Positions 499 to 19,452 of a DNA stretch of 46,318 nt are shown one piece after another. The stretch covers positions 1 to 46,318 of the forward strand of contig NZ_JAOART010000003.1 of the NCBI RefSeq assembly GCF_025210435.1. Direction: 5' to 3'. The position numbers were made by a program, and so were the translations under genes. The notes beneath the pieces are model-generated. The model did no database searches. It was not told where the DNA came from and worked only from the letters and a program-made list of their open reading frames with translations. This DNA comes from Anaeromicrobium sp. Its GTDB lineage: Bacteria; Bacillota; Clostridia; Peptostreptococcales; Thermotaleaceae. Position 1 is the first letter of the stretch. Every line of letters begins with the position of its first letter.

Positions 499-507
499 GT
501 GGTTTTT

Positions 508-1398
508 ATGGACACACAATATAATATTATGTCGTCTGAGGACTTACGTAAAATGCAATTAATACAGCTTGAAATGCTACTAGAGGTTCATCGTATTTGC
601 AAAAAGTACAATATTCAGTACTGTATTATAGCAGGAACTCTCCTAGGGGCTGTACGACATAAGGGGTATATTCCTTGGGATGATGATGCTGATGTGGCAA
701 TGCTTCGCCCTGAATATGAAAGGTTTTGTAAGGTATGCGAAAAGGAGTTAGATGGCACACGTTTTTTTTTGCAAACACATTCTAATACTCATGGTTATCG
801 TTGGGGATATGGGAAAATCAGACGCGTGGGAACAGAGTTTGTTCGTAAGGGTCAGGAACATATGCCTTATCCCACTGGAGTTTTTATTGATATATTTCCG
901 TTAGATAATGTGCCAGATAATATTTATGTTCGTCGAATTCATAATTTGGCATGCACTGTTATTCGAAAAATGCTTTGGTCTGCGGTGGGAGCAAAATCAG
1001 ATAAAAATGTAATCATGCGTGGTATATACCATTGTATTTCATTATTTCCAAGAAATTTTGTTTTCTTACTGTATAACAGTCTAATGAGGGAAAGTAATAA
1101 AAAGTCTACACAGATGGTTAGAATTTTAACCTTTCCTACTCCAGATAATGGCTATTATGGTTATTATAGAAGGTGGTATGTGGAACTTAAAGATATAAAA
1201 TTCGAGGGCCATTATTTTCCTGGCCCTAAAGATTATGATGAATATTTAACTTTTAAATTTGGGAATTACCACGAGTTTCCCCCTCTAGAGGAGCGTAATG
1301 GACATGCAGCTAGCCGATATAGGCTTTCGCCTTCTGAAAAGGGGAAGCTTAATCCTAAGGTATATAAAAATAATACAGAGATAGGGGGGAGTAAATGA
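508..1398 (+). CDS. LicD family phosphotransferase
   Basis: This 296-residue protein belongs to the LicD family, nucleotidyltransferase-fold enzymes that move a phospho-alcohol (phosphocholine in the founding member, other phospho-alditols in relatives) from a CDP-activated donor onto a glycan. The signature is GTLLGAVRHKGYIPWDDDAD at about residues 43-62. It has the GxxLG loop and an acidic cluster that binds metal. The ATG at 508 is chosen because AGGTGG lies five bases upstream; a GTG at 499 is in frame but sits inside that site. It is the first gene of the long operon and overlaps the next gene by four bases. That neighbour makes a CDP-activated product, so the two probably act together. 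The transferred group cannot be read from sequence. Confidence 0.85.
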   Translation: MDTQYNIMSSEDLRKMQLIQLEMLLEVHRICKKYNIQYCIIAGTLLGAVRHKGYIPWDDDADVAMLRPEYERFCKVCEKELDGTRFFLQTHSNTHGYRWGYGKIRRVGTEFVRKGQEHMPYPTGVFIDIFPLDNVPDNIYVRRIHNLACTVIRKMLWSAVGAKSDKNVIMRGIYHCISLFPRNFVFLLYNSLMRESNKKSTQMVRILTFPTPDNGYYGYYRRWYVELKDIKFEGHYFPGPKDYDEYLTFKFGNYHEFPPLEERNGHAASRYRLSPSEKGKLNPKVYKNNTEIGGSK

Positions 1399-2747
1399 AA
1401 AAGGTAATTACTTATGGTTCTTTTGATTTGTTTCACTATGGCCATTATAGACTTTTAAAGCGAGCTAAAGAACTTGGAGATTATCTAATTGTGGGAGTAA
1501 CAACAGAGCAATACGATGAATATAGAGGTAAATTGAATGTGATTGATTCTCTTATGGAAAGAATCGAGAATATTAAACAGACTGGACTTGCGGATGAAAT
1601 TATTATAGAAGACCACGAAGGACAAAAGGTTAAGGATATTCAAAAGTATGGAATAGATATTTTTGTTGTAGGTTCAGACTGGAAGGGCAAATTTGAATTC
1701 TTAAAACAATATTGTGATGTTGTATATCTGGAACGTACAAAAGGAATTTCTAGCACTATGATACGACAGAAAAATTATAAAATTGTCAAATTGGGCATTA
1801 TTGGAAGTGGTAGAATTGCTACACGATTTGCACCGGAAGTTAAGTATGTAAGTGGAACGAATTTAGAGGGGGTTTATAATCCATCTATTCATAGTGCAAG
1901 AAGGTTCGCCCAGCAATTTGAGTTGAAGTTTTTTACGGATGATTTGGAAGCTTTTTTTGAGAAAATTGATGCGGTTTATATAGCATCTCCTCATAATACA
2001 CATTATGAATATATACGCAAAGCATTAGAACAGGGGAAGCATGTATTAAGTGAAAAGCCTATGGTTTTACATGCACATGAGGCAGAAGAAGTTTATCATA
2101 TTGCTAAGGAAAAAGGTCTCATATTGCTAGAAGGAATTAAAACTGCTTATGCGCCAGGATTCTTACAGCTCCTGGCAATTGCCAAAAGTGGTAGAATCGG
2201 TATGATACGTGATATGGAAGCTTGTTTTACAAAGTTAGTAGCGGGGGATATTAGGGAATTGAAACCAGAGGAAAACGGAGGAAGTGTTACGGAACTTGCC
2301 AGTTATCCACTTCTTGCAATTGTGAAGTTACTTGGCACAAACTACAAGGATTTAAGATTTGATACTTTTGTAGATGAAAATGGTATTGATTTATATACAA
2401 AAATTCATATGAAATATGAAAAATCTGTTGCTACTGGAAAAGTTGGTTTAGGAGTAAAATCAGAAGGACAGCTTTTGATTTCTGGTACACAAGGATATAT
2501 TCATGTGGAAGCACCTTGGTGGAAAACCCAGCATTTTGAAATACGACATGAAGAGCAGGATAAAAATGAAAAATTCTTTTCTAAGTTTGCTGGAGATGGC
2601 CTTCGTTATGAACTGAGTGATTTTATCTCCATGATAAACGGTAATGAGAGAAAAGGATTTAAACTGACTCCAAAAGAATCGGTTGCTATTGCAGAAATCA
2701 TTGAGGCATTTTTAGGAAAAGAAAATACAGTTACTATGAAGTATTAA
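1395..2747 (+). CDS. Fused cytidylyltransferase / Gfo-Idh-MocA oxidoreductase
   Basis: This 450-residue protein joins two enzymes. Residues 1 to about 128 are a cytidylyltransferase of the TagD/glycerol-3-phosphate type, with HYGH at 14-17 and RTKGISST at 114-121, the family signatures for nucleotide binding. Residues from about 132 onward are an NAD(P)-dependent Gfo/Idh/MocA oxidoreductase with GSGRIA at 137-142 and an EKP motif typical of the catalytic region. The likely combined role is to reduce a keto precursor and activate the resulting alditol phosphate as a CDP derivative. That would supply the LicD protein just upstream and the TagF-like protein at 11,905. The substrate (glycerol, ribitol or another alditol phosphate) is unknown. 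It overlaps licD by ATGA and starts at ATG after GGGGGAG. Confidence 0.85.
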   Translation: MKKVITYGSFDLFHYGHYRLLKRAKELGDYLIVGVTTEQYDEYRGKLNVIDSLMERIENIKQTGLADEIIIEDHEGQKVKDIQKYGIDIFVVGSDWKGKFEFLKQYCDVVYLERTKGISSTMIRQKNYKIVKLGIIGSGRIATRFAPEVKYVSGTNLEGVYNPSIHSARRFAQQFELKFFTDDLEAFFEKIDAVYIASPHNTHYEYIRKALEQGKHVLSEKPMVLHAHEAEEVYHIAKEKGLILLEGIKTAYAPGFLQLLAIAKSGRIGMIRDMEACFTKLVAGDIRELKPEENGGSVTELASYPLLAIVKLLGTNYKDLRFDTFVDENGIDLYTKIHMKYEKSVATGKVGLGVKSEGQLLISGTQGYIHVEAPWWKTQHFEIRHEEQDKNEKFFSKFAGDGLRYELSDFISMINGNERKGFKLTPKESVAIAEIIEAFLGKENTVTMKY

Positions 2748-2760
2748 TTTGAGGTGAAAT

Positions 2761-3918
2761 ATGAAAAAGATAAAGATATTACAATTTCCCATTGCTAATG
2801 CACGTGGTGGAATTACACAATATGCATTACAAAATTGGAGATTTATAGATAAAAGTCGTTTTCAGTTTGATTTTGCAACAAGAAGCAAAACTTTGGATTT
2901 TGCAGATGAACTTACTGACCAAGGGTGCAAAATTCATTATTTAACATGTTCATCAGAAGAAAATGAATCACAATTTATTAAAGAAGTTAATGAAATCTTA
3001 GATGAGGGCTATGATGCTGTTCATCTTCACACATCCTTTTGGAAAGGTTATTTAGTAGAGAAGCTTGCTATGGAAAGAAAATGCCCCTTAGTAATCGTAC
3101 ACTCCCATAGCACGATGATTGATGTATTGGACGAGCAACAGCGAAAAGAATATATAAAAAAACACAATTTCTATAAAAATAGGCTTCCATTAGAATATGC
3201 TACAGACTTTTGTGCTTGTTCTAAGCTTGCAGCAGAGTGGTTGTATGGTGAGCAAATTCCTAAGAATAGCATTCACATATTAAAAAATGCTATTGATGTA
3301 CCAACATATAGTTTTTGTCCTGAAAGTAGGAAGGATTACCGGGAAAAGTTAGGCCTTAATGGGTGCTTTGTTTTAGGCCATATCGGAAGGTTTGTCTATC
3401 AAAAGAATCATGATATGCTCATTGAAATATTTCGAAAGGTATATGAAAAAATGCCCAATGCAAGACTTATGTTCATAGGTGGCGGTAAGTTGGAAAAACA
3501 AATTCAACAGAAGGTGAAAGAATATGGTTTGGAAAACGTAGTGATGTTTATGGGGAAACGTACGGATGTATCACAACTCCTACAGGCAATGGATGTTTTT
3601 TTATTACCTTCTCGCTTCGAAGGTCTGCCTATTGTTCTTATAGAAGCACAAGTAGCAGGGTTGAAATGCTTTGCAAGTGAGAGTATTTCTACAGAAGCAA
3701 AAATTACCCCTAATTTGGAGTATATTTCAGATTCCACTTCTGATTGGGTAGAATGGATTGTGAAAACTGGGAGGGGCTATGAACGCATAAAAAATGACCA
3801 CTTGATTACACAAGTTGGCTATGATTTGAGGGAACACATTAAAGTGATAGAAAAATTATATGCTGGAGAAGATATTTCTAAATATTGTCCTAGTGCAGAA
3901 GATGAAATTTCTCTATAA
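2761..3918 (+). CDS. Glycosyltransferase family 4 (GT-B), EpsF/Cps-like
   Basis: This 385-residue retaining GT-B glycosyltransferase is probably cytoplasmic and membrane-associated and adds one sugar from a nucleotide donor during glycan repeat synthesis. The C-terminal half has the GT4 donor-binding motif SRFEGLPIVLIEAQVAG, containing the E-x7-E pair, and GxxGRFVYQKNH before it. The N-terminal half has the GGITQYALQNW segment common in exopolysaccharide GT4 enzymes, where the glycine pair lines the acceptor cleft. RBS GAGGTG lies seven bases before the ATG. It sits 13 bases after the fusion gene in the same operon. Sugar specificity is not predictable; the UDP-aminosugar made by the next three genes is one candidate donor. 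Confidence 0.88.
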   Translation: MKKIKILQFPIANARGGITQYALQNWRFIDKSRFQFDFATRSKTLDFADELTDQGCKIHYLTCSSEENESQFIKEVNEILDEGYDAVHLHTSFWKGYLVEKLAMERKCPLVIVHSHSTMIDVLDEQQRKEYIKKHNFYKNRLPLEYATDFCACSKLAAEWLYGEQIPKNSIHILKNAIDVPTYSFCPESRKDYREKLGLNGCFVLGHIGRFVYQKNHDMLIEIFRKVYEKMPNARLMFIGGGKLEKQIQQKVKEYGLENVVMFMGKRTDVSQLLQAMDVFLLPSRFEGLPIVLIEAQVAGLKCFASESISTEAKITPNLEYISDSTSDWVEWIVKTGRGYERIKNDHLITQVGYDLREHIKVIEKLYAGEDISKYCPSAEDEISL

Positions 3919-3946: not shown

Positions 3947-4951
3947 TTGTTTAAGGATAAGACGTTAATGATTACAGGTGGAACTGGTTCTTTTGGGAAA
4001 GCTGTCTTAAAGCGTTTTCTAGATACAGATGTTAAAGAAATACGCATTTTTTCAAGAGATGAAAAAAAGCAGGACGATATACGAAGGTTATATAATAGTA
4101 GTAAGGTTAAATTCTATTTGGGAGATGTGCGAGATTTGCATAGTGTTCAAAGTGCAATGTTTGGAGTGGATTATATTTTCCATGCTGCGGCTTTAAAGCA
4201 GGTGCCGTCATGTGAGTTTTTCCCCATGGAAGCAGTTAAAACTAATATCTTGGGCGTAGAGAATGTTTTGACTGCTGCAATAGCAGAAGGGGTGAAGAAA
4301 GTTATTTGTCTTTCCACGGACAAGGCAGCTTACCCAATCAATGCTATGGGAATAAGCAAAGCAATGATGGAGCGCGTATTTGTGGCAAAATCACGTACTA
4401 CGGATAAAACAGTAATATGTGGTACAAGGTATGGGAATGTAATGGCTTCAAGGGGATCAGTAATTCCATTGTTTATTGATCAAATCAAGCAGGGTAAACC
4501 CATTACTGTTACTGACCCTAATATGACAAGGTTTATTATGAGCCTTGAGGAGGCCGTAGAACTTGTTCTATTTGCTTTTGAAAATGCACAACCGGGAGAT
4601 ATTATGGTACAAAAAGCTCCTGCATGTACAATTGGTGTTTTGGCACAAGCGGTAAAAGAAATATTTCAGGGGAACAATGAAATTCAATATATTGGTATAA
4701 GACATGGTGAAAAGGATTATGAAACTTTGCTTACTAAAGAAGAATGTATACACGCAAGGGACTTGGGTAATTACTATCAGATTCCTGCTGATAATAGGGA
4801 ACTGAACTATTCCCAGTATTTTGAAGTTGGTAAGACGGAAAAAAACATAATTACAGAATACACTTCAAATAATACCACAATTTTAAACGTGGAACAGGTT
4901 AAGGAAAAGCTCTTAAAATTGGATTACGTGCAAAAGGAGTTAATTAAATGA
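3947..4951 (+). CDS. capE: UDP-GlcNAc 4,6-dehydratase, 5-inverting (CapE/WbjB/FnlA type)
   Basis: This 334-residue SDR enzyme should convert UDP-GlcNAc to UDP-2-acetamido-2,6-dideoxy-beta-L-arabino-4-hexulose, the first step to 6-deoxy-L-aminosugars. The NAD(P) loop GGTGSFG is at 11-17. STDKAAYPINAMGISK at 123-138 has Met134 and Lys138, so the usual YxxxK is MxxxK. Met in this position is typical of the CapE/WbjB branch and separates it from PseB, which keeps Tyr. It starts at TTG 3947, chosen because AAGGAG lies 11 bases upstream and no better start fits. It overlaps the reductase gene by four bases. The symbol is by family resemblance. Confidence 0.85.
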   Translation: MFKDKTLMITGGTGSFGKAVLKRFLDTDVKEIRIFSRDEKKQDDIRRLYNSSKVKFYLGDVRDLHSVQSAMFGVDYIFHAAALKQVPSCEFFPMEAVKTNILGVENVLTAAIAEGVKKVICLSTDKAAYPINAMGISKAMMERVFVAKSRTTDKTVICGTRYGNVMASRGSVIPLFIDQIKQGKPITVTDPNMTRFIMSLEEAVELVLFAFENAQPGDIMVQKAPACTIGVLAQAVKEIFQGNNEIQYIGIRHGEKDYETLLTKEECIHARDLGNYYQIPADNRELNYSQYFEVGKTEKNIITEYTSNNTTILNVEQVKEKLLKLDYVQKELIK

Positions 4952-5799
4952 AAATTCTAGTTTTGGGTACGGGAGGTATGGCAGGGCACCTTGTTGCAAT
5001 ATATCTTCGTGAAAAGGGACATAGGGTTACAGGTTTTTCAAAAACTCCCCTTTCCTATTGTGAAAATATTGTAGGTAATGCCTTAGATAAGAAGACTTTA
5101 GAAGAAGCTGTTACCTGTGAACCCTTTGATGCAGTGATTAACTGTATTGGTGTTCTCAATAAAGAAGTAGATAATCATATAGCAGATGGTATTTTTCTCA
5201 ACAGCTATCTTCCTCATTTTATTGTGGATTGTTTAAAAGATACAAAAACAAAATTTATTCATCTAAGTACAGATTGTGTTTTTTTAGGTAAGAGTGGTGC
5301 ATATGGTGAAGATGATTTTAAGGATAGTGATACTTTTTATGGAAGAACAAAGGCGCTGGGAGAAATTAACGATACAAAAAATCTGACTATCAGAACATCA
5401 ATAATTGGCCCGGACCGAAAAGAAAATGGAGTTGGACTGTTAAACTGGTTTCTTAAACAAGATGGATCTGTGAATGGATTTACCTCGGCAATTTGGACAG
5501 GAGTTTCCACAATAACTTTAGCACAGGCCATTGAACGTGCATTAGAGGAGGATTTATGTGGACTTTATCATCTCGTGAATAATCAAACAATTAGCAAGTT
5601 TGAGCTTTTACAGTTATTCAATTGTTATCTAAAGAAGGAGCAAGTTGAAATTTTGTCAGATGATTCGGTTCATGTTGATAAGTCCTTAATAAATAATAGA
5701 AAGGATTTTAACTTTATAGTTCCTTCTTATGAACAAATGATAAAGGATACAAGGGATTGGATTTTTGCTCATAAGGAACTGTATCCACACTATTTTTAA
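4948..5799 (+). CDS. RmlD-like nucleotide-sugar 4-reductase, no cupin domain
   Basis: This 283-residue SDR protein has an N-terminal GTGGMAG nucleotide loop at 7-13, STD at 107-109 and Tyr131/Lys135 in FYGRTKALGE, as in RmlD-type reductases. Between CapE-like and 2-epimerase genes it should reduce the 4-keto group of the 6-deoxy-L-hexulose. CapF, WbjC and FnlB, which do this in UDP-L-FucNAc synthesis, are about 370 residues and end in a cupin domain that epimerises C3. Here the protein stops after the SDR domain. The shorter form matches the reductase of the UDP-L-rhamnosamine/UDP-L-quinovosamine route better. That assignment is inference from length and domain content. Confidence 0.8.
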   Translation: MKILVLGTGGMAGHLVAIYLREKGHRVTGFSKTPLSYCENIVGNALDKKTLEEAVTCEPFDAVINCIGVLNKEVDNHIADGIFLNSYLPHFIVDCLKDTKTKFIHLSTDCVFLGKSGAYGEDDFKDSDTFYGRTKALGEINDTKNLTIRTSIIGPDRKENGVGLLNWFLKQDGSVNGFTSAIWTGVSTITLAQAIERALEEDLCGLYHLVNNQTISKFELLQLFNCYLKKEQVEILSDDSVHVDKSLINNRKDFNFIVPSYEQMIKDTRDWIFAHKELYPHYF

Positions 5800-5812
5800 G
5801 GGGGTGTTTATT

Positions 5813-6937
5813 TTGAAAAAATTAAAATTAATGACTATTGTAGGAACTCGTCCAGAAATGATTAGACTTTCTGAATTGATAAAAAAGGCCGATTCCTATT
5901 TTGAACATATTTTTGTGCATACGGGACAAAATTACGATTATAATCTAAATGAAATTTTTTATAGAGATTTGCAGCTTCGAACTCCTGATTATTATTTGAA
6001 TGTGGTTGGTGATCATTTGGGACAGACCATTGGAAATATTATTTCAAAGTCTTATGATTTAATGGCAAAGCTTCGACCTGATGCTTTGTTAATTCTTGGT
6101 GATACAAATTCCGCACTATCTGCTATTTCAGCAAAGAGGTTAAAAATTCCGATTTTTCATATGGAAGCGGGAAACAGATGCTTTGACGAAAATCTTCCAG
6201 AGGAAACAAATAGGAGAATTGTAGATCATATTTCTGATGTAAACCTTCCTTACACAGAACATGCACGCCGTTATTTGCTGGCAGAGGGTGTACGCAAGGA
6301 ACATATTTATGTAACGGGTTCACCTATAGCAGAGGTCATATATGCACGTAAACAGGAAATTGAAAAAAGCAAGATATTAGAAAACTTATCACTAGAAAAG
6401 GGAAAGTATATTGTCCTTTCAGCACATCGTGAAGAAAATATAGATATTGAAGAAAATTTCTTTAGCCTGATGAATGCTATCAATGTAATGGCAAAGAAGT
6501 ATGAGATGCCTGTTATCTATTCGGTACATCCACGTAGTGCCAATTTAATTGAGAAGAGGCAGTTCAAATTTCACCCCCTTGTTAAGCAGCTTGCACCATT
6601 TTCATTTACAGACTATAGTTTTCTTCAGCAAAATGCTTTTTGTGTAGTATCCGACAGCGGAACTTTGCCGGAAGAAAGTGCAATTTGTAGATTTCCGGCT
6701 GTTAGTATTAGAACTTCTACGGAACGTCCGGAAGCCCTAGACAAAGGATGCTTTATAATTGGAGGAATTACAGAAGAACAGATATTGCAGTCAGTTGATA
6801 TGGCAGTGAAAATGGCACAAAATAGTGACTTTGGTTCTACGGTTACAGATTATTCTGAAATAGGTATTTCATCAACGGTACTTCGTATTATTCAGAGTTA
6901 TGTGGGGATTATTAACAAAAATATTTGGAATAAATAA
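5813..6937 (+). CDS. Non-hydrolysing UDP-N-acetyl-sugar 2-epimerase (WecB/CapG type)
   Basis: This 374-residue GT-B-fold epimerase inverts C2 of a UDP-2-acetamido sugar. The family marks are GTRPEMIRL near residue 11, HTGQNYD, HMEAGNR, SVHPRS and DSGTLPEE. Coming after the CapE-like and RmlD-like enzymes it is expected to act on the UDP-6-deoxy-L-aminosugar, as CapG/FnlC or WbvD do, and not on UDP-GlcNAc itself. The start is taken as TTG 5813, eight bases after AAGGGGGTG. The in-frame ATG-less extension upstream overlaps the preceding gene and lacks a ribosome binding site. The final product is UDP-L-FucNAc or UDP-L-QuiNAc depending on whether C3 is also inverted. Confidence 0.85.
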   Translation: MKKLKLMTIVGTRPEMIRLSELIKKADSYFEHIFVHTGQNYDYNLNEIFYRDLQLRTPDYYLNVVGDHLGQTIGNIISKSYDLMAKLRPDALLILGDTNSALSAISAKRLKIPIFHMEAGNRCFDENLPEETNRRIVDHISDVNLPYTEHARRYLLAEGVRKEHIYVTGSPIAEVIYARKQEIEKSKILENLSLEKGKYIVLSAHREENIDIEENFFSLMNAINVMAKKYEMPVIYSVHPRSANLIEKRQFKFHPLVKQLAPFSFTDYSFLQQNAFCVVSDSGTLPEESAICRFPAVSIRTSTERPEALDKGCFIIGGITEEQILQSVDMAVKMAQNSDFGSTVTDYSEIGISSTVLRIIQSYVGIINKNIWNK

Positions 6938-6955: not shown

Positions 6956-8284
6956 ATGAATAATCCACTAGTTTCAATAGTAATACCAGTTTACAATGGA
7001 GGAAATTATTTAAGGGAAGCCATTGACAGCGCATTAGCGCAAACCTATGAAAATTGTGAGGTATTAGTTATAAATGATGGCTCTAATGATAATGGTTTAA
7101 CAGAAAAGATTGCTTTATCTTATGGTGAAAAAATTAGATATTTAAAAAAACAAAATGGTGGGGTTGCAACAGCAGTTAATTTAGGAATTGAAAATATGAA
7201 AGGTGAATATTTTGCGTGGCTTTCTCACGATGATATGTATTACCCTGAAAAAATCGAGAAGCAAATACAAGCTTTACGTGAAAATGGGGATATGACTGCA
7301 ATTGTTCATTCTAACTATGACGTATTAGATGTTGAATCACAAAAATTAACCCCTGTTAATTGGCTTAATCAATATACACTTAAACAGTTGACAAATAGTA
7401 ATTTTGCTCCAGTTTTTTTATGCATTCATGGATGCAGTATCTTAATTCATAAAAGTCATTTTCAACGTGTTGGTTTATATGATGAAAGCCTTATAGCTAC
7501 TCAAGATTCTGTTTTTTTATTTCATCTAATGAGGGATCAAAAATCAGTATTCGTAGAAGAGGAGCTGTTTATAACTAGGTTGCATAAAGATCAAGGAAGT
7601 CGTACAATGGCATGTCATGAACCAGAATATAATAAGATGTTCAAAAACTTTTGTGATATGCTGACGGAAGATGAAATGTGTTTAATGTGTGGTTCAGTAT
7701 ATAATTTTTATAATAGATTATTATGTTTATTAAGACCTATTCCAAAGGGAAAAGTTACTTGTAAATTTATTTTAGAAAAATTACATGAATTACCGATTCC
7801 TAAAGATTATTTTAGCAAACAATATGAACTTTTTAGTTTTTTGCAAAATATTTCAAAAGGTAAAACTGACAAGTTGTGCATTTTTGGAGCGGGAAGATTT
7901 GGAAAAAGATTGCTTAGAGATTTAAGAGGTAGATGTATCACTGTTGATTGTTTTGCAGATAATGATCCTCAAAAAAAGGGTACATTTATTGAGAATATTC
8001 CTTGTATTTCATTTGATGAACTTAAAAAACAAAAAGAACATATATTAGTAATTATTTCCATGTTAGCTTCTGATGAAGTATTTAAGCAATTAAACGAAAA
8101 TGGGTTTAAATATTTTATTACAAAACAGAGTATTGATAGATTTTTATTCAGTATTCCTCCTATTATTCAATTGGAGGAGTTATATACCAATCCAAAAATT
8201 AATTATGAGTCTGAGGATTGCAGATATTTGATAAAGAGTTTTAATAAGACGTTGATGGAAATGATTAAAAATTCTAATAGTTAG
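6956..8284 (+). CDS. GT2 glycosyltransferase with C-terminal GAG Rossmann-like domain
   Basis: This 442-residue protein has a GT-A family 2 domain at about 1-230: SIVIPVYNGGNYLREAIDS at the N terminus, DGS at 41-43 and the metal-binding SHDDM at 90-94. A second domain at about 305-395 begins CIFGAGRFGKRLL and continues with FADNDPQKKG and a CISFDEL motif. This is the same Rossmann-like module that opens the radical SAM proteins downstream. The gene is paralogous to the one at 13,410, with near-identical first 110 residues. In this copy the usual TQDYDMW acceptor motif is TQDSVFL, so catalysis or acceptor choice may differ. RBS GAGGAGG precedes the ATG. The sugar and acceptor are unknown. Confidence 0.85.
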   Translation: MNNPLVSIVIPVYNGGNYLREAIDSALAQTYENCEVLVINDGSNDNGLTEKIALSYGEKIRYLKKQNGGVATAVNLGIENMKGEYFAWLSHDDMYYPEKIEKQIQALRENGDMTAIVHSNYDVLDVESQKLTPVNWLNQYTLKQLTNSNFAPVFLCIHGCSILIHKSHFQRVGLYDESLIATQDSVFLFHLMRDQKSVFVEEELFITRLHKDQGSRTMACHEPEYNKMFKNFCDMLTEDEMCLMCGSVYNFYNRLLCLLRPIPKGKVTCKFILEKLHELPIPKDYFSKQYELFSFLQNISKGKTDKLCIFGAGRFGKRLLRDLRGRCITVDCFADNDPQKKGTFIENIPCISFDELKKQKEHILVIISMLASDEVFKQLNENGFKYFITKQSIDRFLFSIPPIIQLEELYTNPKINYESEDCRYLIKSFNKTLMEMIKNSNS

Positions 8285-8314
8285 AATATAATTAGAAAAG
8301 AAAGGACAATAAGT

Positions 8315-9508
8315 ATGAAATGGACAAGTAAAGGACATCAGTTTGATGATTTAGGTATGTTATTAAAGGATAAAAATCAAGTCTATATCTATGGTGCAGC
8401 TTTAAAGGGTGGTAAGTTATTTGAACTGTTAAGGTCGTGTAATAAGTGGTTGAACTGGGAAATAGCTTTTGTGGATGCAGATAAATGTAAACAGAAAGAT
8501 GGTTATCTAGGTACTCAAGTTTTATCACCAGAAGAATTATTTAACAGTCCAAAAGAAAATCATTTTGTTATTGTTGCAGCATCACCATTCAATACAGTGG
8601 AAATAACAGATATATTATTAAAAAATGGATATGTTTCAGATTTTAATTGTTTTGCATATGAAAAATTTATGAACTTTATTTTACCTATACACTTTGTATA
8701 TAATTATGATATGGTTTTTTTCTCTTCTCAAAGTATTTTACCGAGTACAGTATGTAATTTGAATTGTGAAAGTTGCTTAAATTTTAATCCATATATAAAA
8801 AATCATATTACCGATGATTTTGAATTAGTAAAAAATGATATTGACAGTTTTTTTACTGCAATAGATTATATTGATCGCTTTCAGATTACTGGGGGAGAAC
8901 CATTTTTATATAAGGAACTTGGCAATTTGATTTCATATATTGAAGAAAACTACAGAGATAAAATTTTTAATCTGGAAACTGTTACAAATGGAAGTGTTAT
9001 TCCTTCGGATGAATTGTGTAAGATACTTAAAGAGAATGATGTTCATGTTATTTTAGATGATTATAGAAATGCATTAAAAGATGGAGACAAGAAATTCAAT
9101 GAAATAATGAATAAGTTTAATGAGTATGGTATTCAATACACTCCAAATTTTGTTACGGAATGGTTTAATATATATCCAAAAGGAATAGACCACTCAAATT
9201 GGTCAAAAAAGGAACTTATTGACCATTATGATGCATGTAATAATCCATTTTCAACAATAAGAGACAAAAAAATATATGCATGTAATTATGCACATTATGC
9301 AGAGAAAGCTGGTTTGATTGTTGAAAATTCAAATGATTATTTTGATTTATCTAAATTTACTCCAAAGATGAAAAAAGAACTAGTTGAATTTAGACTTGGT
9401 TATACTAATGAAGGTTATGTTGATTTTTGTAAAACTTGTGCAGGATGGGTCTCTATAAATAAAAATATGGTACCTGTTGCAAAACAGATCAAAAGAAATA
9501 ATGCTTAA
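8315..9508 (+). CDS. Radical SAM protein with N-terminal GAG Rossmann-like domain, paralog 1
   Basis: This 397-residue protein has two parts. Residues 1 to about 115 open with MKWTSKGHQFD and carry a Rossmann-like module (VYIYGAALKGGKL, AFVDAD, VLSPEEL); here the GAG glycine is Ala. The rest is a radical SAM domain with C147-x3-C151-x2-C154 for the 4Fe-4S cluster and GGEP at 193-196 for SAM binding. Four more cysteines (308, 323, 372, 375) near the C terminus are spaced like a SPASM/twitch auxiliary cluster. It probably performs a radical modification of a sugar, lipid-linked glycan or protein. No characterised homologue is recognised. It is the first of three tandem paralogs, 11 bases apart. 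Confidence 0.85.
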   Translation: MKWTSKGHQFDDLGMLLKDKNQVYIYGAALKGGKLFELLRSCNKWLNWEIAFVDADKCKQKDGYLGTQVLSPEELFNSPKENHFVIVAASPFNTVEITDILLKNGYVSDFNCFAYEKFMNFILPIHFVYNYDMVFFSSQSILPSTVCNLNCESCLNFNPYIKNHITDDFELVKNDIDSFFTAIDYIDRFQITGGEPFLYKELGNLISYIEENYRDKIFNLETVTNGSVIPSDELCKILKENDVHVILDDYRNALKDGDKKFNEIMNKFNEYGIQYTPNFVTEWFNIYPKGIDHSNWSKKELIDHYDACNNPFSTIRDKKIYACNYAHYAEKAGLIVENSNDYFDLSKFTPKMKKELVEFRLGYTNEGYVDFCKTCAGWVSINKNMVPVAKQIKRNNA

Positions 9509-9519
9509 GAGGTGGTACT

Positions 9520-10701
9520 ATGAAATGGACAAATAGAGGTCATCAGTTAGATTATATAGGAAATCATTTTGTAAATAGAAATAAAATTTATATTTACGGA
9601 GCAGGGAAATTGGGAGCAGAGTTATTTTCTTATGTGAAATTTCTTGATTGTGTTGAAGCTTTTGTCGATGCAGATGAAGAAAAACAAAAAGATGATTATT
9701 GTGGTGTAAAGGTCATATCGCCTGAAGCTTTTTTGAAATTACCCAAAGATGATCAGATTGTTATATTAGCGGTTTCTATGAAAAATATGGATTACATTTC
9801 AACAAGATTGTTACGAGCTGGATATTTAGAATGTATTAATTTTTTCACTATACATCGATTTATTGACTACTATCTACCAATATACAGTGTTTATGCTAAA
9901 GATAAGGTGTTTTTTTATTCAGGAGCAACTATGCCTAGTACAGTATGTAATCTAAATTGTAAAAGTTGTTTAAATTTCAATCCCCAGATAAAAAAGCATA
10001 TTACTAAAAGTATAGAAGAAATGAAAAAGGATATAGACTGTTATTTTAATTGTGTTGATTATACAGTTAGGTTCCAGATTTGTGGTGGAGAACCCGTTTT
10101 GTATCCACAACTTGCTGATTTATTAATATATATTGGAGAAAATTATAGAAGTAAGATACGAACTTTTGAAATTGTAACAAATGGTACTATAGTACCTTCA
10201 GAAAAATTATGCCAGGCTTTAAAAAAATATGATGTTCTTGTTTATCTTGATGATTATACGGAAGCATTGCCAGAAAAAAAACATATCAGAGCTACTATAA
10301 TGGATAAGTTCCATCATTTTGATATTAGTTTTGTTGATAATAAAGTGGATGTATGGTTTGATTTATGTCCAATGACAACAGATAATTCATATATGTCTGA
10401 AGAAGAGTTGATTGATTATCATGATGCGTGTCAAATTCCTTGGATAGAGTTTCGTGATGGCAAAATATATAATTGTAATTTTTCCAGCTTTGCTATGAAA
10501 GCCGGATTGAACGTTGAGTCAGAAAATGACTATTTTGATTTGAGGAATATTACATCAGAAAATAAAAAGGAATTAGTTGAGTTTCGTATGGGTTATACTG
10601 AAAACGGGTATGTAGATTTTTGTAGACGTTGTGCAGGTTGGTGTACAATTAATAAAAAACCTGTTCCAGTTGCAAAACAGTTGAAAAGAAATAAGGATTA
10701 A
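9520..10701 (+). CDS. Radical SAM protein with N-terminal GAG Rossmann-like domain, paralog 2
   Basis: This 393-residue paralog has MKWTNRGHQLD at the N terminus, then IYIYGAGKLGAEL with a complete GxGxxG loop. The radical SAM cluster cysteines are C143, C147 and C150, followed by LNFNP, and GGEP is at 189-192. C-terminal cysteines at 304, 319, 368 and 371 match those of paralog 1 in spacing. It has the closest likeness to paralogs 1 and 4, including the motif LDDYTEALP in the middle of the barrel. RBS AGAGGTGG is eight bases upstream of the ATG. Function is unknown; a radical step on a glycan or its carrier is the best guess from the neighbours. Confidence 0.85.
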   Translation: MKWTNRGHQLDYIGNHFVNRNKIYIYGAGKLGAELFSYVKFLDCVEAFVDADEEKQKDDYCGVKVISPEAFLKLPKDDQIVILAVSMKNMDYISTRLLRAGYLECINFFTIHRFIDYYLPIYSVYAKDKVFFYSGATMPSTVCNLNCKSCLNFNPQIKKHITKSIEEMKKDIDCYFNCVDYTVRFQICGGEPVLYPQLADLLIYIGENYRSKIRTFEIVTNGTIVPSEKLCQALKKYDVLVYLDDYTEALPEKKHIRATIMDKFHHFDISFVDNKVDVWFDLCPMTTDNSYMSEEELIDYHDACQIPWIEFRDGKIYNCNFSSFAMKAGLNVESENDYFDLRNITSENKKELVEFRMGYTENGYVDFCRRCAGWCTINKKPVPVAKQLKRNKD

Positions 10702-10712
10702 GAGGTGTCATA

Positions 10713-11888
10713 ATGAAGTGGACGAATAAAGGTCATCAGTTTGATGAAATAGGAAAATTGTTTAAAAATATTAACAGAGTGTATATCTATGGTGCTGGCA
10801 TGTATGGTGAAAAATTATATAAAAATATTAAATTTATTAATTGTATTGAAGCATTTGTAGATGGGAACATTGAAAAGCAGGAAAGTGGATATTTAGGTAA
10901 GAAAGTAATTTCTCCTGAAGAATTTTTCAAAATTAATCCTAATGGTGACCATATTGTGATAGTGGCAGCGTCTATGGGAAATACGCCAGTAATTTTAAAA
11001 GAATTATTATTATCAGGATATAAAGAGTGTATAAATTGTTTTGCTTATAACCGTTTTGTTGAATTTTATTTCCCTATTTTTAGTTTGTATAGATATGATA
11101 AGTTGTATTTTGAAGAAATGACAACATCAATTACTCAGAGATGTACATTAAAATGTGAAAAATGTTCATGTTTATTTCCGTATGTTAATGATCCTAAGGA
11201 TTATGAGCTACAAAGTCTAAAGGAGGATATGGATTGCTTTTTTTCTAAGATAGATTATTTGCAAAGATTAAGTATTATTGGTGGAGAACCATTTTTGTTT
11301 TCTAATCTTACAGAGTATGTATCATATATTTGCGAAAATTACTTAGAAAAAATCGGAAAAATAGTAATTGTGTCCAATGGAACTATTGTACCTAATAAAG
11401 AACTAGCTTATGTTTTGAAAAAAAATAAAATTGTTGTTGAAATTAGTGATTATACTAAATCATTACCATTTTTAAATAAAAAATTAGAAAAATTGAAGAG
11501 TTACTTGAATCAACAAGGTATAGAAATAATAGAAATCTTTCATGATCAGTGGGTTGATTTTGGATTTGAAAGTGTGGATAATAGTGATTTCACATCAAAA
11601 CAACTCATTTCATTATTTAAGAAATGTGATATACGTTGCAGAGGATTAAAAGACAAAAGTCTAATAATGTGTATGCCATCAGAACATGCTAATGTAGTAC
11701 TTTCTAAATTTAAAGACGATGAAAATTATTTTGATTTATTAAATGAGTGTGAAAATATAAAGAAAATAATTTTAGAGTATAATATGGGATATACAAATGA
11801 GGGTTATTTGCATATGTGTAAGTATTGTAATGGTGGAGTTCCAATAAATAAACATATAATCGAATCGGCAAAACAAATTAAAATGTAG
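10713..11888 (+). CDS. Radical SAM protein with N-terminal GAG Rossmann-like domain, divergent paralog 3
   Basis: This 391-residue paralog keeps the MKWTNKGHQFD start, the IYGAGMYGEKL Rossmann loop, C144-x3-C148-x2-C151 and GGEP at 190-193. It differs from the other three. The LNFNP motif after the cluster is replaced by a Cys-rich SCLFPYVN segment, an additional cysteine appears at 309, and the central DDYTEALP motif is ISDYTKSLP. C-terminal cysteines at 305, 320, 369 and 372 are retained, so an auxiliary cluster is still likely. The differences around the active site suggest a different substrate or reaction from paralogs 1, 2 and 4. It ends one base before a stretch that also encodes the next gene's RBS. 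Confidence 0.85.
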   Translation: MKWTNKGHQFDEIGKLFKNINRVYIYGAGMYGEKLYKNIKFINCIEAFVDGNIEKQESGYLGKKVISPEEFFKINPNGDHIVIVAASMGNTPVILKELLLSGYKECINCFAYNRFVEFYFPIFSLYRYDKLYFEEMTTSITQRCTLKCEKCSCLFPYVNDPKDYELQSLKEDMDCFFSKIDYLQRLSIIGGEPFLFSNLTEYVSYICENYLEKIGKIVIVSNGTIVPNKELAYVLKKNKIVVEISDYTKSLPFLNKKLEKLKSYLNQQGIEIIEIFHDQWVDFGFESVDNSDFTSKQLISLFKKCDIRCRGLKDKSLIMCMPSEHANVVLSKFKDDENYFDLLNECENIKKIILEYNMGYTNEGYLHMCKYCNGGVPINKHIIESAKQIKM

Positions 11889-11904
11889 AATGAGGGTAAT
11901 TTAT

Positions 11905-13374
11905 ATGATTAAATCTTTGAAAAATAGAATTTTAGAATTGCTAGATACAATTACAGAAATGGTAAATTTATTGTGCCAAGTACAAGATAAAAAAGTATTC
12001 ATTTCAGATTGTTACGAAGCAATTGAGTCTATAATGGGTCATATTGAGAAAGAACAAACATCCCCTGTAAAGACACTTAGGTTGTTAGATGAAATTCAAG
12101 ATGCTTTTGTTTTAGGGTTAAATAATATAGAAATCATTAATGACTCTTATGTTAAAGAACTGAAAAAAAATGTTGTTTTACTTAAATCTGTATTAAGAGA
12201 GGAAGTTAATGAACAACTTAATGTAGTATTTTTCCCATACAAGGAATCGATGTGGGATAGTCTGGCTACCATATATGAGGCGGCTGTAAATGACTCTAAT
12301 TGTGTAGCGAAGGTTGTTCCTATTCCTTATTATAAATTAGAACACGAATCAGTCCAGCCAGTTTATGAAGGTGATTTATTTCCTGAAGATATTCAAAAGG
12401 TGAATTATAATAATTATGATTTGGAAACAGAACAACCAGATATTATATTCGTACATAATATTTATGATCAGTACAATACGATTACACAAGTATCTGAGCA
12501 GTATTTCACATCAAATTTAAAAAAATATACAGATATGTTGGTTTATGTACCATACCATATTTCATCACCAGTTAAGGCAGAGAAGGATGATTCACGCATG
12601 TCATATAAACTTCCAACTATCAAAAATGTAGATAAAGTGGTGCTTGCCGGGGAATTTGTAGAAAAAGAGGCATTAAGAGATGGGATTCCAAAAGAAAAGA
12701 TTTTAACACTTGGTTCACCTAAATTTGATGGAATGTTAAAAGTTTTAAATGAAGATACTGAATTTCCTGATGAGTGGAAAGACGTTATTGAAGGGAAGAC
12801 AGTATTTTTACTTAATACTGGATGTTTATATTTTGTTAATGATATTCGAGCTGCTGCTGTTATGCTAGATTTAATACTTGATATTCCTAGGTATATTGAT
12901 AATGTAGCATTAATTTGGAGACCGCATCCGTTAACCGAAGCTGCTGTAAAAAGATATGCACCAGAATTGTCAGGTCTTTTAGAGAGTTATTATGAGGCAA
13001 TAAAAAACAAAAGTCCTCATGTTAAGAATACTATATTAGATCAAAATGAAAGCTACTTCCCTGCGTTAAAGGTAGCAGATGTTTTACTAACAAATTTTAG
13101 TTCTATATTGGATTCGTATTTGTTGACAGAGAAAAAAGTGATTTATTTAGGTGAAAAAATGCCTGAAAGTTCATTGATTCCATCAGATACATTTTATTAT
13201 TTTTTTGATAAAGATGAACCTTGGTTTGAACTTGCGAAAAAAATAGCCAAAGGGTATGATCCGTTAGCTAAAAAAAGAAAAGAGATTGCATCTAAATTTT
13301 ATGAATGTTTAGATGGAACAAGTGGAGAAAAGATTTATAAAGCCGTTAAAGAATGTGTTTTAAGAAATCAATAG
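11905..13374 (+). CDS. CDP-glycerol glycerophosphotransferase-like protein (TagF-like GT-B)
   Basis: This 489-residue protein has an N-terminal helical region of about 100 residues and then a GT-B-like fold. WRPHP at 338-342 and ADVLLTNFSSILDSYLL at 391-407 match the nucleotide-binding motifs of TagF-type polyglycerol-phosphate synthases, which move glycerol phosphate from CDP-glycerol to an acceptor. The N-terminal half with FVHNIYDQYNT and YVPYH segments is the acceptor side. The start is ATG 11,905, eight bases after TGAGGG; an ATG 15 bases earlier overlaps that site. With the cytidylyltransferase fusion and LicD at the operon start, it argues for an alditol-phosphate decoration of the glycan. 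The alditol is not known. Confidence 0.72.
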   Translation: MIKSLKNRILELLDTITEMVNLLCQVQDKKVFISDCYEAIESIMGHIEKEQTSPVKTLRLLDEIQDAFVLGLNNIEIINDSYVKELKKNVVLLKSVLREEVNEQLNVVFFPYKESMWDSLATIYEAAVNDSNCVAKVVPIPYYKLEHESVQPVYEGDLFPEDIQKVNYNNYDLETEQPDIIFVHNIYDQYNTITQVSEQYFTSNLKKYTDMLVYVPYHISSPVKAEKDDSRMSYKLPTIKNVDKVVLAGEFVEKEALRDGIPKEKILTLGSPKFDGMLKVLNEDTEFPDEWKDVIEGKTVFLLNTGCLYFVNDIRAAAVMLDLILDIPRYIDNVALIWRPHPLTEAAVKRYAPELSGLLESYYEAIKNKSPHVKNTILDQNESYFPALKVADVLLTNFSSILDSYLLTEKKVIYLGEKMPESSLIPSDTFYYFFDKDEPWFELAKKIAKGYDPLAKKRKEIASKFYECLDGTSGEKIYKAVKECVLRNQ

Positions 13375-13409
13375 TGTATATATTTTTAAAAATTTTATGG
13401 AGGAATCAT

Positions 13410-14630
13410 ATGAATACACCTATGGTATCAATTGTTATTCCAGTTTATAATGGACAAAATTATTTAAAAGAAGCTATAGACAGTGCCTTGTCACAAACCT
13501 ATTCAAATTTTGAAGTGATTGTAGTTAATGATGGTTCGAATGATGGAGGTATTACGGAGAAAATTGCATTATCATACGGCACTAAAATTAGGTATTTTTA
13601 TAAAGAAAATGGTGGCGTTGCAACAGCCCTTAATCTTGCAATTCAAGAAATGCGTGGCCAATATTTTTCTTGGTTATCTCACGATGATATGTATTATCCA
13701 AATAAGCTTAATCGTGAAATCCAAGCTTTGCAGGAGCATGGAGATATGTCTGCTCTAGTTTATAGCGATTATGATATATTAGAAGTAGAAACGAATACAA
13801 TTGATTCTACTAATTTGAGCAAAATTTTTTCTCTAAGTAAGTTAACTAATTCTGTATTCCCAATTTTACAGAACATAATTCATGGTTGTACACTTTTGAT
13901 TCATAAAAGTCATTTTGAGCGTGTGGGCTTGTTTGATGAAAAGCTAATTACAACGCAAGATTATGATATGTGGTATCGCATGTTTCGTGGGCAGAAAACT
14001 ATTTTTATTCCTGAATCGTTGATAAAGATTCGTATACATAAAGAATCAGGTACGAATACTATTTCTTGTTTTACTAAAGAAGTAGGTACTCTTTATATGA
14101 AATTTATCAATTCTTTATCAGATAAAGAAATAGATGAAATTTTTATACATCCTGCAATATTATATAATAAAATTGCAGGATTAATGAAAGATTATGCTTT
14201 AATGGAAGAATATAAAATTGTTATGGAGAAATTAATGAGAATAGATGGGCCCCAAAATATTTGGGGAGGTCTCGAAAAATTCAAGGAATGCATAGATAGT
14301 TTTTCAAATGGAAATGCAGAAAAAATCTGTGTTTTTGGAGCAGGGCATTATGGTGAAAGGTTATACTATGATCTTCATAGCAGGTTAATTAAAATTGATT
14401 TATTTGCCGATAACAATCCTGAAAAATGGGGTAGCAGCATTAATGGGGTTTCTTGTATTTCACCTAAACAGTTATATGAAATTAAAAATAATACATTAGT
14501 AATTGTAGCAATGCGAACTCCTACGGAGGTAGTATTGAAAATGAAAAATGATGAATATCCTTATGTAATAACGAAACAACAGCTTGATGGAAAGATTGCT
14601 CAAACAATTCCTTTAAATAATTCTATATAA
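13410..14630 (+). CDS. GT2 glycosyltransferase with C-terminal GAG Rossmann-like domain, second copy
   Basis: This 406-residue paralog of the gene at 6,956 has the same two-domain plan. The GT-A family 2 domain has SIVIPVYNGQNYLKEAIDS, DGS at 41-43, SHDDM at 90-94 and an intact TQDYDMWYR motif at about 182-190. That last motif carries the acidic residue that usually acts as catalytic base and is missing from the first copy. The C-terminal Rossmann-like module begins CVFGAGHYGERLYYDL at about 307, followed by FADNNPEKWG. The ATG at 13,410 follows GGAGG by six bases; an upstream in-frame extension overlaps the previous gene and is not likely used. It sits between the TagF-like gene and the fourth radical SAM gene. 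Confidence 0.86.
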   Translation: MNTPMVSIVIPVYNGQNYLKEAIDSALSQTYSNFEVIVVNDGSNDGGITEKIALSYGTKIRYFYKENGGVATALNLAIQEMRGQYFSWLSHDDMYYPNKLNREIQALQEHGDMSALVYSDYDILEVETNTIDSTNLSKIFSLSKLTNSVFPILQNIIHGCTLLIHKSHFERVGLFDEKLITTQDYDMWYRMFRGQKTIFIPESLIKIRIHKESGTNTISCFTKEVGTLYMKFINSLSDKEIDEIFIHPAILYNKIAGLMKDYALMEEYKIVMEKLMRIDGPQNIWGGLEKFKECIDSFSNGNAEKICVFGAGHYGERLYYDLHSRLIKIDLFADNNPEKWGSSINGVSCISPKQLYEIKNNTLVIVAMRTPTEVVLKMKNDEYPYVITKQQLDGKIAQTIPLNNSI

Positions 14631-14738
14631 CTATGTTTCGACGATTTAATTTGCATTCATAATTTCATTTTTAAGGGAATTTAAGTTTTATACAAAGGAT
14701 ATTGATATAAATAAAATATTTTAAAAAGGAGTTATCCT

Positions 14739-15908
14739 ATGAAGTGGACTAATAGAGGTTATGAATTTGATAAGCAAGGTGTTTATTTAAAAGGAATAAA
14801 AAAAATCTATATTTATGGTGCTGGTAAGCTTGGTATGGAATTTTTGCATATGTTTAGAACTTTTGATGATTTTGATTGTGAAATTAAATTTATTGATGCA
14901 GATAGAGCTAAACAAAAAGCAGGATATCTTGATTTGAAAGTGTTGTCACCTGAAGAATTTTTCCAAACATCTAAAGAGGAGCATATTGTCATAGTTGCAG
15001 CTTCTATTCAAAACACTATAACCATTATGGAAAAAATGCAAGCATTTGGATATGAAGAGGATGTAGATTGTTTTACTGTGCAACGATTTTTGCCAATTTA
15101 TTCGGGGTATGTAAGAGATAAGGTTTACTTTCCTTCCATATCTTTTTTACCAACTACAAGATGTAATTTGAATTGTGAAGCTTGTCTAAACTTTAATCCG
15201 TATAACAAAAATCAAACAGATATAGATTTGAATATTTTAAAAGCAGATGTTGATATATTTTTTCAATGTGTAGATTATATTGGATTATTCCATATCAGCG
15301 GCGGAGAACCTTTGCTTTATCCGCAACTTGGTCATTTAATCGAATATATTGATAATAATTATAGAAAAAAAATATATAGGTTGGAGATAACAACAAATGG
15401 CACTATTATACTATCTGATGAAATATGTAAAATATTAAAAAAGCATAATGTGAATGTTATTTTGGATGATTATACAGAGGCTTTACCTCAAAATAAACAA
15501 AGATTTGAGAAGGTAATGAATAAGATGAAAGCGCATTGTATTGAGTACTTCATAAACAAAGTGGATAGTTGGATTGATCTTTGCCCTTTAACAACAAATC
15601 ATTATGATTGGAATGATCAAAAATTAATGGATTTCTATGAAGCTTGCAAAAATCCTTTTCAGGAATTACGTGATAAAAAGATATATAGCTGTAATTATGC
15701 CAGCTATGCTATGAAAGCGGGTTTGAATGTAGATTCTTGCAATGATTATTATGACCTTACTACGTTTAACCTGAAAAAGAAAAAAGAATTGATAGAGTTT
15801 AGATTAGGCTATACTGAAAAAGGGTATGTTGACTTTTGTAAGAAATGTAGTGGATTATCTACAACAATTAATAAAAATATTGTTGTAGTTGCGAAGCAGA
15901 AATCGTGA
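14739..15908 (+). CDS. Radical SAM protein with N-terminal GAG Rossmann-like domain, paralog 4
   Basis: This 389-residue paralog is separated from the other three by the TagF-like and GT2 genes. It starts MKWTNRGYEFD and has IYGAGKLGMEF as the Rossmann loop. The radical SAM cluster cysteines are C142, C146 and C149, followed by LNFNP; GGEP is at 188-191, and the C-terminal cysteines are at 303, 318, 367 and 370. The 108 bases before it are AT-rich with no clear terminator, so it may be read through from the GT2 gene or from a weak local promoter. RBS AAAAAGGAG lies nine bases before the ATG. It is the last gene of the island and ends close to a hairpin terminator. Confidence 0.85.
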   Translation: MKWTNRGYEFDKQGVYLKGIKKIYIYGAGKLGMEFLHMFRTFDDFDCEIKFIDADRAKQKAGYLDLKVLSPEEFFQTSKEEHIVIVAASIQNTITIMEKMQAFGYEEDVDCFTVQRFLPIYSGYVRDKVYFPSISFLPTTRCNLNCEACLNFNPYNKNQTDIDLNILKADVDIFFQCVDYIGLFHISGGEPLLYPQLGHLIEYIDNNYRKKIYRLEITTNGTIILSDEICKILKKHNVNVILDDYTEALPQNKQRFEKVMNKMKAHCIEYFINKVDSWIDLCPLTTNHYDWNDQKLMDFYEACKNPFQELRDKKIYSCNYASYAMKAGLNVDSCNDYYDLTTFNLKKKKELIEFRLGYTEKGYVDFCKKCSGLSTTINKNIVVVAKQKS

Positions 15909-17013: not shown

Positions 17014-17047
17014 ATATTATAGAAAGTATATGAGGTGGGAGATTAAA

Positions 17048-19429: not shown

Positions 19430-19452
19430 AAATGGTGAATAGGAGGGACGTT

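Follow-up and report, generated by a model that had tools for sequence, protein, structure and literature searches.

A Rossmann-like domain of about 100 residues, here called the module, sits on six of the seven genes at 6956–15908 of a 46,318-nucleotide stretch of Anaeromicrobium sp. (NZ_JAOART010000003.1; the whole stretch, contig C134 of genome G000, is hereafter the window, from an assembly of 3.96 Mb in 148 contigs). It is N-terminal on four radical SAM (rSAM) proteins and C-terminal on two GT2 glycosyltransferases, and is of the kind known from PglD_N, the domain of unknown function (DUF) of WbaP and the N-terminal domain of PglF. Our preferred reading, to which we give a probability of roughly 0.5, is that the window holds a flagellin- or surface-glycan island in which six enzymes bear an accessory uridine-nucleotide-binding domain, with SpeY-like rSAMs acting on sugars.

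Aligning the four rSAM modules against the two GT2 modules with hhalign gives a probability of 97.2 (E 3.4e-11), and a six-row profile run on the genome itself returns eight matches at E ≤ 1 (25 candidates scored): beyond the six, a 633-residue frame of PglF/WbpM size (7.7e-6) and one weak match (0.018). A 97-row profile adds two frames of 218 (4.4e-10) and 300 residues (6.7e-4). Chance or generic Rossmann similarity was rejected on these grounds. All six module genes are intact plus-strand open reading frames (ORFs) in a check of the interval; the seventh gene, 11890–13374, gave no match to the module profile. A first-pass annotation of the window had proposed one domain shared by the four rSAMs and two GT2s, and the alignment and models confirm that the six proteins carry one homologous Rossmann-like domain. 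The motifs it listed are present as a pattern but not to the letter: YIYGAG is literal in three of the four rSAMs (YIYGAAL in the protein starting at 8315), the second motif reads FVDAD, FVDAD, FVDGN and FIDAD in the rSAMs and FADND and FADNN in the GT2s, and the third varies among the six too. N-terminal to the module, all four rSAMs have a MKWTxxGxxxD signature (8315–8365, 9520–9570, 10713–10763 and 14739–14789) that recurs across phyla, W3 being kept at 90% or above in 29 rows.

Structures were predicted for one of the four rSAMs (9520–10701, full length) and one of the two GT2 modules (6956–8284) with AlphaFold 2, reaching a predicted local distance difference test (pLDDT) score of 94.2 and a predicted template-modelling (pTM) score of 0.90 for the rSAM (29 rows), and 94.8 and 0.87 for the GT2 module (97 rows). 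The two modelled modules are alike, with no difference in fold. Foldseek matches the GT2 module to Rex (2vt3, 5.8e-5), VioB (7txp, 1.5e-4), WbaP (8t53, 5.6e-4) and 3nkl (9.5e-4), all with TMq of 0.64–0.71, a small Rossmann-like fold of the PglD_N/WbaP-DUF/PglF-N kind; Rex also matches the whole rSAM model (1.0e-4). Searched against the sequences of solved structures, the 97-row profile has 29 matches at E ≤ 0.05, including 3nkl (2.4e-12), Rex (2.5e-10), VioB (1.5e-7), WbaP (8.8e-5), the PglD-type acetyltransferase 7l7z (1.7e-4) and FkbM 2py6 (0.0017). When 97 isolated modules are compared with Pfam (E ≤ 0.01), the families matched are PglD_N (25 modules), CoA_binding (19), Methyltransf_14 (7), 2-Hacid_dh_C (7) and C2185-like_N (6), and ten more families match one or two modules each. 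Two loop glycines are well kept (G10 in 166/174, G12 in 150/174), as is an aspartate on β2 (155/176); the residue that follows it is most often Asn, and is Ala or Gly in the window rSAMs. A cobalamin-binding domain was considered because many B12 rSAMs carry an N-terminal Rossmann domain (PMC11659888), and rejected: there is no B12 Pfam match at E ≤ 1 in the four rSAMs, and the module is common to the GT2s.

The solved relatives make uridine nucleotides the first candidates for a ligand. In the PglD-type Pcryo_0637 the N-terminal domain is described as a UDP platform, Asp40 and Ser11 lying close to the ribose and Asp41 beside the uracil (PMC8040287). The WbaP DUF is reported to be stabilized by UMP, UDP and UTP and destabilized by UDP-Gal, full-length WbaP to be inhibited by UMP with an apparent IC50 of 4.1 µM, and the DUF to resemble a domain of PglF-like dehydratases (PMC10942596). 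The module shares fold, profile and an accessory, non-catalytic place on glycan enzymes with the WbaP DUF (PF13727) and the PglF/WbpM N-terminal domain (3nkl); there, however, the domain is joined to membrane-helix bundles and phosphoglycosyl transferase or dehydratase cores, whereas here it accompanies rSAMs, GT2s, methyltransferases and more. With the PglD_N domain of PglD, NeuD and VioB it shares the Gly-rich loop, the β2 Asp and the VioB profile match, but the window has no hexapeptide acetyltransferase partner, its modules stay below the PglD_N cut-off and the uracil-anchoring Asp is not kept. Because the WbaP and PglD-type relatives bind uridine nucleotides, UDP sensing or UDP-sugar holding is our first choice: the module would most likely bind UDP, UMP or a UDP-sugar, either keeping a sugar donor in place by its UDP end next to the catalytic domain, the role it has in PglD-type acetyltransferases, or throttling the enzyme when uridine nucleotides accumulate, as proposed for WbaP. 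A nucleotide-sugar, suggested early on as the common partner, is thus plausible by analogy with these relatives.

The layout recurs. Scanning named genomes with an rSAM alignment gave 17 loci, mostly from Lachnospiraceae and other Clostridia by name, with one Treponema and two Synergistales; one of them, L018, almost duplicates L019 and was left out. With the window and 20 stretches from class genomes, the 16 remaining loci make 37 stretches holding 179 module proteins at E ≤ 1e-3, which our own profiles class as 29 rSAM-module, 29 GT2-module and 16 FkbM-module proteins and a mixed remainder of 105; many contigs end inside islands. The search for GT2-module and rSAM-module genes in one place that the first-pass annotation had called for thus finds them together again. 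The same rSAM-module family occurs in L020 and L024 (Synergistales) and L011 (Treponema), which suggests transfer between phyla. Within the family of the source organism all 17 genomes match at E ≤ 0.001, with matches below 1e-15 in the genome itself (six) and G009 (three) only; in the class sample, where at most 17 candidates per genome were scored, 25 of 291 genomes match at E ≤ 1e-12, the source genome included. Strong matches outside that genome are clustered, 46 of 57 lying within 20 kb of another (mean 1.5 and maximum 9 in 2,000 uniform placements, a crude chance model), and up to 10 module enzymes share one stretch.

Among module proteins longer than 190 residues the fusion is N-terminal in 111, C-terminal in 50 and internal in four; 11 complete module ORFs are of at most 190 residues. 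Three of these stand-alone modules (L075:11125-11649, L075:12900-13397 and L077:15439-15927) carry at the N terminus a markedly hydrophobic stretch that might anchor them in a membrane (19-residue Kyte–Doolittle maxima of 3.0, 3.5 and 2.0); the other eight have no obvious one. The Pfam-named partners of the module are mostly glycan enzymes. In 78 class-island proteins (E ≤ 1e-5; 25 of 40 families listed) they include GT2 and FkbM (10 each), CTP_transf_like (4), Glyphos_transf, DUF4422, MptE-like and AP_endonuc_2 (3 each), TupA, GT4 and Radical_SAM (2 each), and LicD, WbsX, GT11, a deacetylase, WcbI, TylF and others once. In 101 proteins of the rSAM loci and window, a set enriched in rSAMs by the manner of its finding (25 of 31 families listed), they include Radical_SAM (32), GT2 (19), FkbM (7), WbsX, DUF4422 and TylF (3 each) and others. 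Matches of single representatives extend to HAD, GT-D, GT4, LicD, DUF5672 and a sulfatase family; of 20 representatives in the scan, three gave no partner family at E ≤ 0.01. Wide occurrence unlinked to glycan genes had been named in advance as fatal to the idea of a glycan machine: the occurrence is indeed wide, but the named partners are for the most part glycan-related, while Rex, among the distant relatives, serves another purpose (NADH sensing). A module common to so many glycan enzymes may point to a device for control or docking that they share.

The idea that the domain was recruited within this operon did not hold up. Across classes, two modules from the same island resemble each other no more than two from separate islands (excess identity 0.0007, reached in 248/500 shuffles, which, like those below, take no account of kinship; the stretches L067/L068 and L081, from two sister genomes, count as a single island). 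Within classes, module distance follows catalytic distance (r = 0.479 for rSAM, 0.647 for GT2 and 0.467 for FkbM; 0, 0 and 1 of 1,000 permutations as large). We therefore rejected recruitment inside the window operon. Module genes seem mostly to travel already fused, which is easier to square with an invariant ligand common to all than with a private code for docking, although docking stays possible. One result stays on the side of the first-pass annotation: rSAM–GT2 pairs are slightly more alike within islands (+0.014, 28/1,000 shuffles; one of five pairings, with no five-test correction), and this sole pairing hints at co-adaptation, as judged from sequence identity. The rSAM–FkbM difference is −0.025 (987/1,000), and GT2–FkbM (−0.005, 502/1,000), rSAM–other (−0.002, 628/1,000) and GT2–other (0.000, 659/1,000) lie between; pairs within the mixed class have plain mean identities of 0.222 within and 0.194 between islands.

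For the rSAM half, C143, C147, C150, C304, C319 and C371 are invariant and C368 is kept in at least 90% of 29 aligned rows, seven cysteines that we infer to hold the SAM cluster (CxxxCxxC) and one auxiliary cluster. Foldseek puts SpeY, whose structure is titled a twitch radical SAM dehydrogenase, in the first four places for the rSAM model (4.4e-12 to 8.0e-12, TMt 0.61–0.65); the peptide-modifying SuiB (5.8e-7), anSME (1.1e-5) and BtrN (2.5e-4) also match. The window rSAMs reach at most 28.8 bits with the NCBIfam twitch model NF033640 (cut-off 170), and their Pfam Radical_SAM E-values run from 2.7e-11 to 5.5e-8. SpeY and BtrN, which belong to antibiotic pathways, resemble the window rSAMs in fold and in a one-auxiliary-cluster cysteine set, whereas the window enzymes form paralogous arrays in a glycan island and carry the added module. 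In the class sample (at most four candidates scored per genome), rSAM relatives at E ≤ 1e-20 occur in 11 of 390 other genomes (best 5.4e-53), none of the matches beginning at profile residue 1; the relative in G343 (L088) carries the module. Two module-free rSAM genes, L084:6611-7510 and L085:6490-7416, adjoin LicD and lie near a GT2. The gene directly 5′ of the 29 rSAM-module genes is a GT2-module gene in 10 cases, an rSAM-module gene in six, another module-bearing gene in four and a gene with no module in nine; GT2-module genes are 19 of the 307 genes of the rSAM loci. At L013:13686-16002, L009:8778-11188 and L010:8724-11185 a GT2-module gene shares 4 to 17 bases with an rSAM-module gene, an overlap that suggests translational coupling.

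Directly upstream of the module genes lie three sugar genes of CapE, RmlD and CapG type, which agree with the FnlA/QnlA/QnlB set described for UDP-L-QuiNAc (PMC6467956) and with the Megavirus pathway that converts UDP-L-RhaNAc to UDP-L-QuiNAc (PMC9614988). For the RmlD-like reductase, the solved-structure search gives a single match at E ≤ 1e-5, the RmlD-type protein 2ggs, and no CapF match. The trio (at least 40% identity over at least 200 residues) is present in L009, L010, L013 and L016, all four of the retrieved loci that have at least two rSAM-module genes, and in 0/12 of those that have one (Fisher 5.5e-4; L011, L012 and L024 are cut short); of the trio, L020 and L024 possess the epimerase only. 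Like the FnlA/QnlA/QnlB pathway, the window has three adjacent homologues, whereas its product is predicted from genes, and L-RhaNAc or another 6-deoxy-HexNAc is possible. An L-QuiNAc-type sugar is our candidate rSAM substrate: the four twitch-type rSAMs would most likely oxidize sugar hydroxyls of a glycan that contains L-QuiNAc, or change them in some other way, together with the neighbouring GT2s, a reaction and an order of steps that we propose from the fold matches and gene context. These data point to radical chemistry of the SpeY kind in the making of flagellin or surface glycans, with a link to a single sugar pathway.

Flagellin, FliS and FliD lie 3.5–7 kb downstream of the glycan genes, so arranged that the window resembles a flagellin glycosylation island and flagellin is the likely target, to go by gene order. 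Clostridium flagellin glycosylation islands likewise set glycan genes beside flagellin, FliS and FliD; as a difference, no Maf-type (MptE-like) transferase was matched among the window proteins scanned, some small ORFs being outside the scan. The main text of a 2026 survey of Clostridium flagella does not contain the word 'radical' (PMC13317340). Of the 14 rSAM-locus genomes that could be searched (those of L020 and L024 lying outside the search), 13 have Flagellin_N, compared with 60 of 148 class genomes, sets that were drawn differently. Counted by hand within one sample, flagellin is present in 12/12 class genomes with strong module matches and 47/135 others (own genome excluded; Fisher 8e-6, uncorrected for kinship). 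By eye, flagellin lies within 25 kb of modules on the same contig in four of those 12 (G056, G098, G125 and G148), and a restriction of the module to flagellar loci was rejected. The distance from rSAM gene to flagellin on one contig is 3.5 kb in the window and about 17 kb in L012; in the L017 genome a second rSAM gene, on contig C258, is about 11 kb from flagellin, and L013 has a flagellin match at the locus edge. Elsewhere among the searched rSAM genomes, flagellin maps to a different contig or lies at a distance of over 100 kb.

Several findings weigh against a uridine-nucleotide module paired with sugar-directed rSAMs. The third loop glycine is present in just 115/176 modules and a stricter Gly-loop pattern in 106/176 (rSAM 26/29, GT2 22/29, FkbM 11/16, others 47/102), so some copies look degenerate. 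The second, uracil-anchoring Asp has no fixed counterpart, the position after the β2 Asp being variable. Window modules fall short of the Pfam cut-offs, both for PglD_N (13.7–15.2 bits against 23.4 in three of seven window proteins, with none listed in the others) and for Methyltransf_14 (20.9 against 23.5), and by fold Rex outranks the UDP-type relatives. On the rSAM side, SPASM peptide-modifying enzymes and anSME are also among the fold matches, L082 has the sugar trio without an rSAM-module gene, and rSAM relatives of about 300 residues in L084, L085, L087 and L089 are module-free. The module is therefore not needed for radical chemistry, and a requirement for it was rejected.

The main rival to a uridine nucleotide ligand is docking, the scaffold reading of the first-pass annotation, in which the module would pair with a second copy of itself, a different module or a stand-alone module anchored in the membrane to build one enzyme complex. 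The crowding of module enzymes in islands and the short module ORFs, three of them with hydrophobic N termini, argue for it, as does the slight within-island likeness of rSAM and GT2 modules; DUFs are reported to supply most WbaP dimer contacts, through a β-hairpin (PMC10942596), and to figure in a modelled EpsZ–EpsW complex (PMC12802240). However, no such hairpin can be made out in the module model, conservation lies in the Gly-loop and Asp with no evident surface, and within-island likeness is absent across all classes and reversed for rSAM–FkbM; we regard docking as possible but unlikely. A Rex-like role, binding NAD(H) and sensing or supplying redox state to the enzymes, is the least probable of the readings. 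Rex, an NADH sensor, is the best match by fold and the second by profile, and GxGxxG with an acid on β2 is a signature of NAD binding as well; but partners such as GT2, FkbM and LicD do not depend on redox input, 3nkl and not Rex heads the profile matches, and PglD_N is matched by more modules than any other Pfam family. That the module is a mostly structural or stabilizing, ligand-free remnant is also improbable: co-inheritance with the catalytic part, degenerate copies, module-free rSAM relatives and 23 of 52 GT2-like proteins without a module in these stretches would suit it, whereas the Gly and Asp are kept across unrelated partners and the fusion occurs at both ends.

A further alternative concerns the rSAM half only and is compatible with any reading of the module (our confidences need not sum to one): the rSAMs may modify the flagellin polypeptide, as peptide maturases do, and not a sugar. 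SuiB, ChlB and anSME among the fold matches, PapB-type maturases among the weak NCBIfam matches and the nearby flagellin speak for this; SpeY's lead of five orders of magnitude, the GT2–rSAM gene pairs, the link of multiple rSAMs to the sugar trio and the module-free relatives beside LicD and GT2 make it rather doubtful. More speculative, and distinctly unlikely, is a general assembly tag for surface-glycan islands, by which uridine-nucleotide-gated pairing of modules, with stand-alone modules (some tethered to the membrane) as anchors, would form a switchable complex for making glycans whose rSAMs oxidize L-QuiNAc-type sugars of the flagellin glycan; its carriers would be radical dehydrogenases, transferases, methyltransferases and phosphotransferases unrelated to each other.

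The first-pass annotation knew of no described system with this layout, and our literature search, limited and mostly outside subscription journals, likewise found no description of rSAM and GT2 proteins with a common module. A Campylobacter jejuni capsule cluster with an rSAM protein has been tabulated (PMC8743553). The WbaP paper finds it puzzling that two enzyme classes of unrelated function share the domain (PMC10942596); in our data this kind of domain sits on many enzyme families gathered in islands, and a single assay of binding or interaction could account for an entire class of glycan loci.

Table 1 Genes of the glycan island and the adjoining flagellar genes in the window (glycan genes all on the plus strand)
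Feature	Position	Strand	Basis or remark
LicD; cytidylyltransferase fused to GFO/IDH/MocA oxidoreductase; GT4	499..3918	+	Pfam
CapE/FnlA-like UDP-GlcNAc 4,6-dehydratase/5-epimerase	3947..4951	+	CapE E 5.7e-154; TIGR04130 535 bits, below cut-off 730
RmlD-like reductase, 283 residues, QnlA-like by context	4948..5799	+	PF04321 1.9e-19
CapG/WecB-like 2-epimerase, QnlB-like by context	5765..6937	+	CapG E 1.4e-160; TIGR00236 over cut-off
GT2, C-terminal module at residues 302–398 (about 7859–8149)	6956..8284	+	Pfam GT2 E 5e-31
rSAM, N-terminal module at residues 18–120, GAA in place of GAG	8315..9508	+	Pfam Radical_SAM
rSAM, N-terminal module at residues 18–116	9520..10701	+	Pfam Radical_SAM; AlphaFold 2 model, full length
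rSAM, N-terminal module at residues 18–117	10713..11888	+	Pfam Radical_SAM
Glycerophosphotransferase-like, without module match	11890..13374	+	PF04464 E 6.6e-5, just over cut-off
GT2, C-terminal module at residues 320–416	13353..14630	+	Pfam GT2 E 6.9e-29
rSAM, N-terminal module at residues 18–119	14739..15908	+	Pfam Radical_SAM
737-residue protein, between island and flagellin	17030–19243		Resembles FliK (C-terminal part) and DUF6240, each below cut-off
Flagellin	19432–20250	+	Pfam
FliS	20267–20689	+	Pfam
ORF between FliS and FliD	20698–21054	+	
FliD	21067–22713	+	Pfam

The fusion of cytidylyltransferase and GFO/IDH/MocA oxidoreductase beside LicD (1395–2747) has similar proteins, at 54–61% identity, in the module islands L015, L068 and L070.

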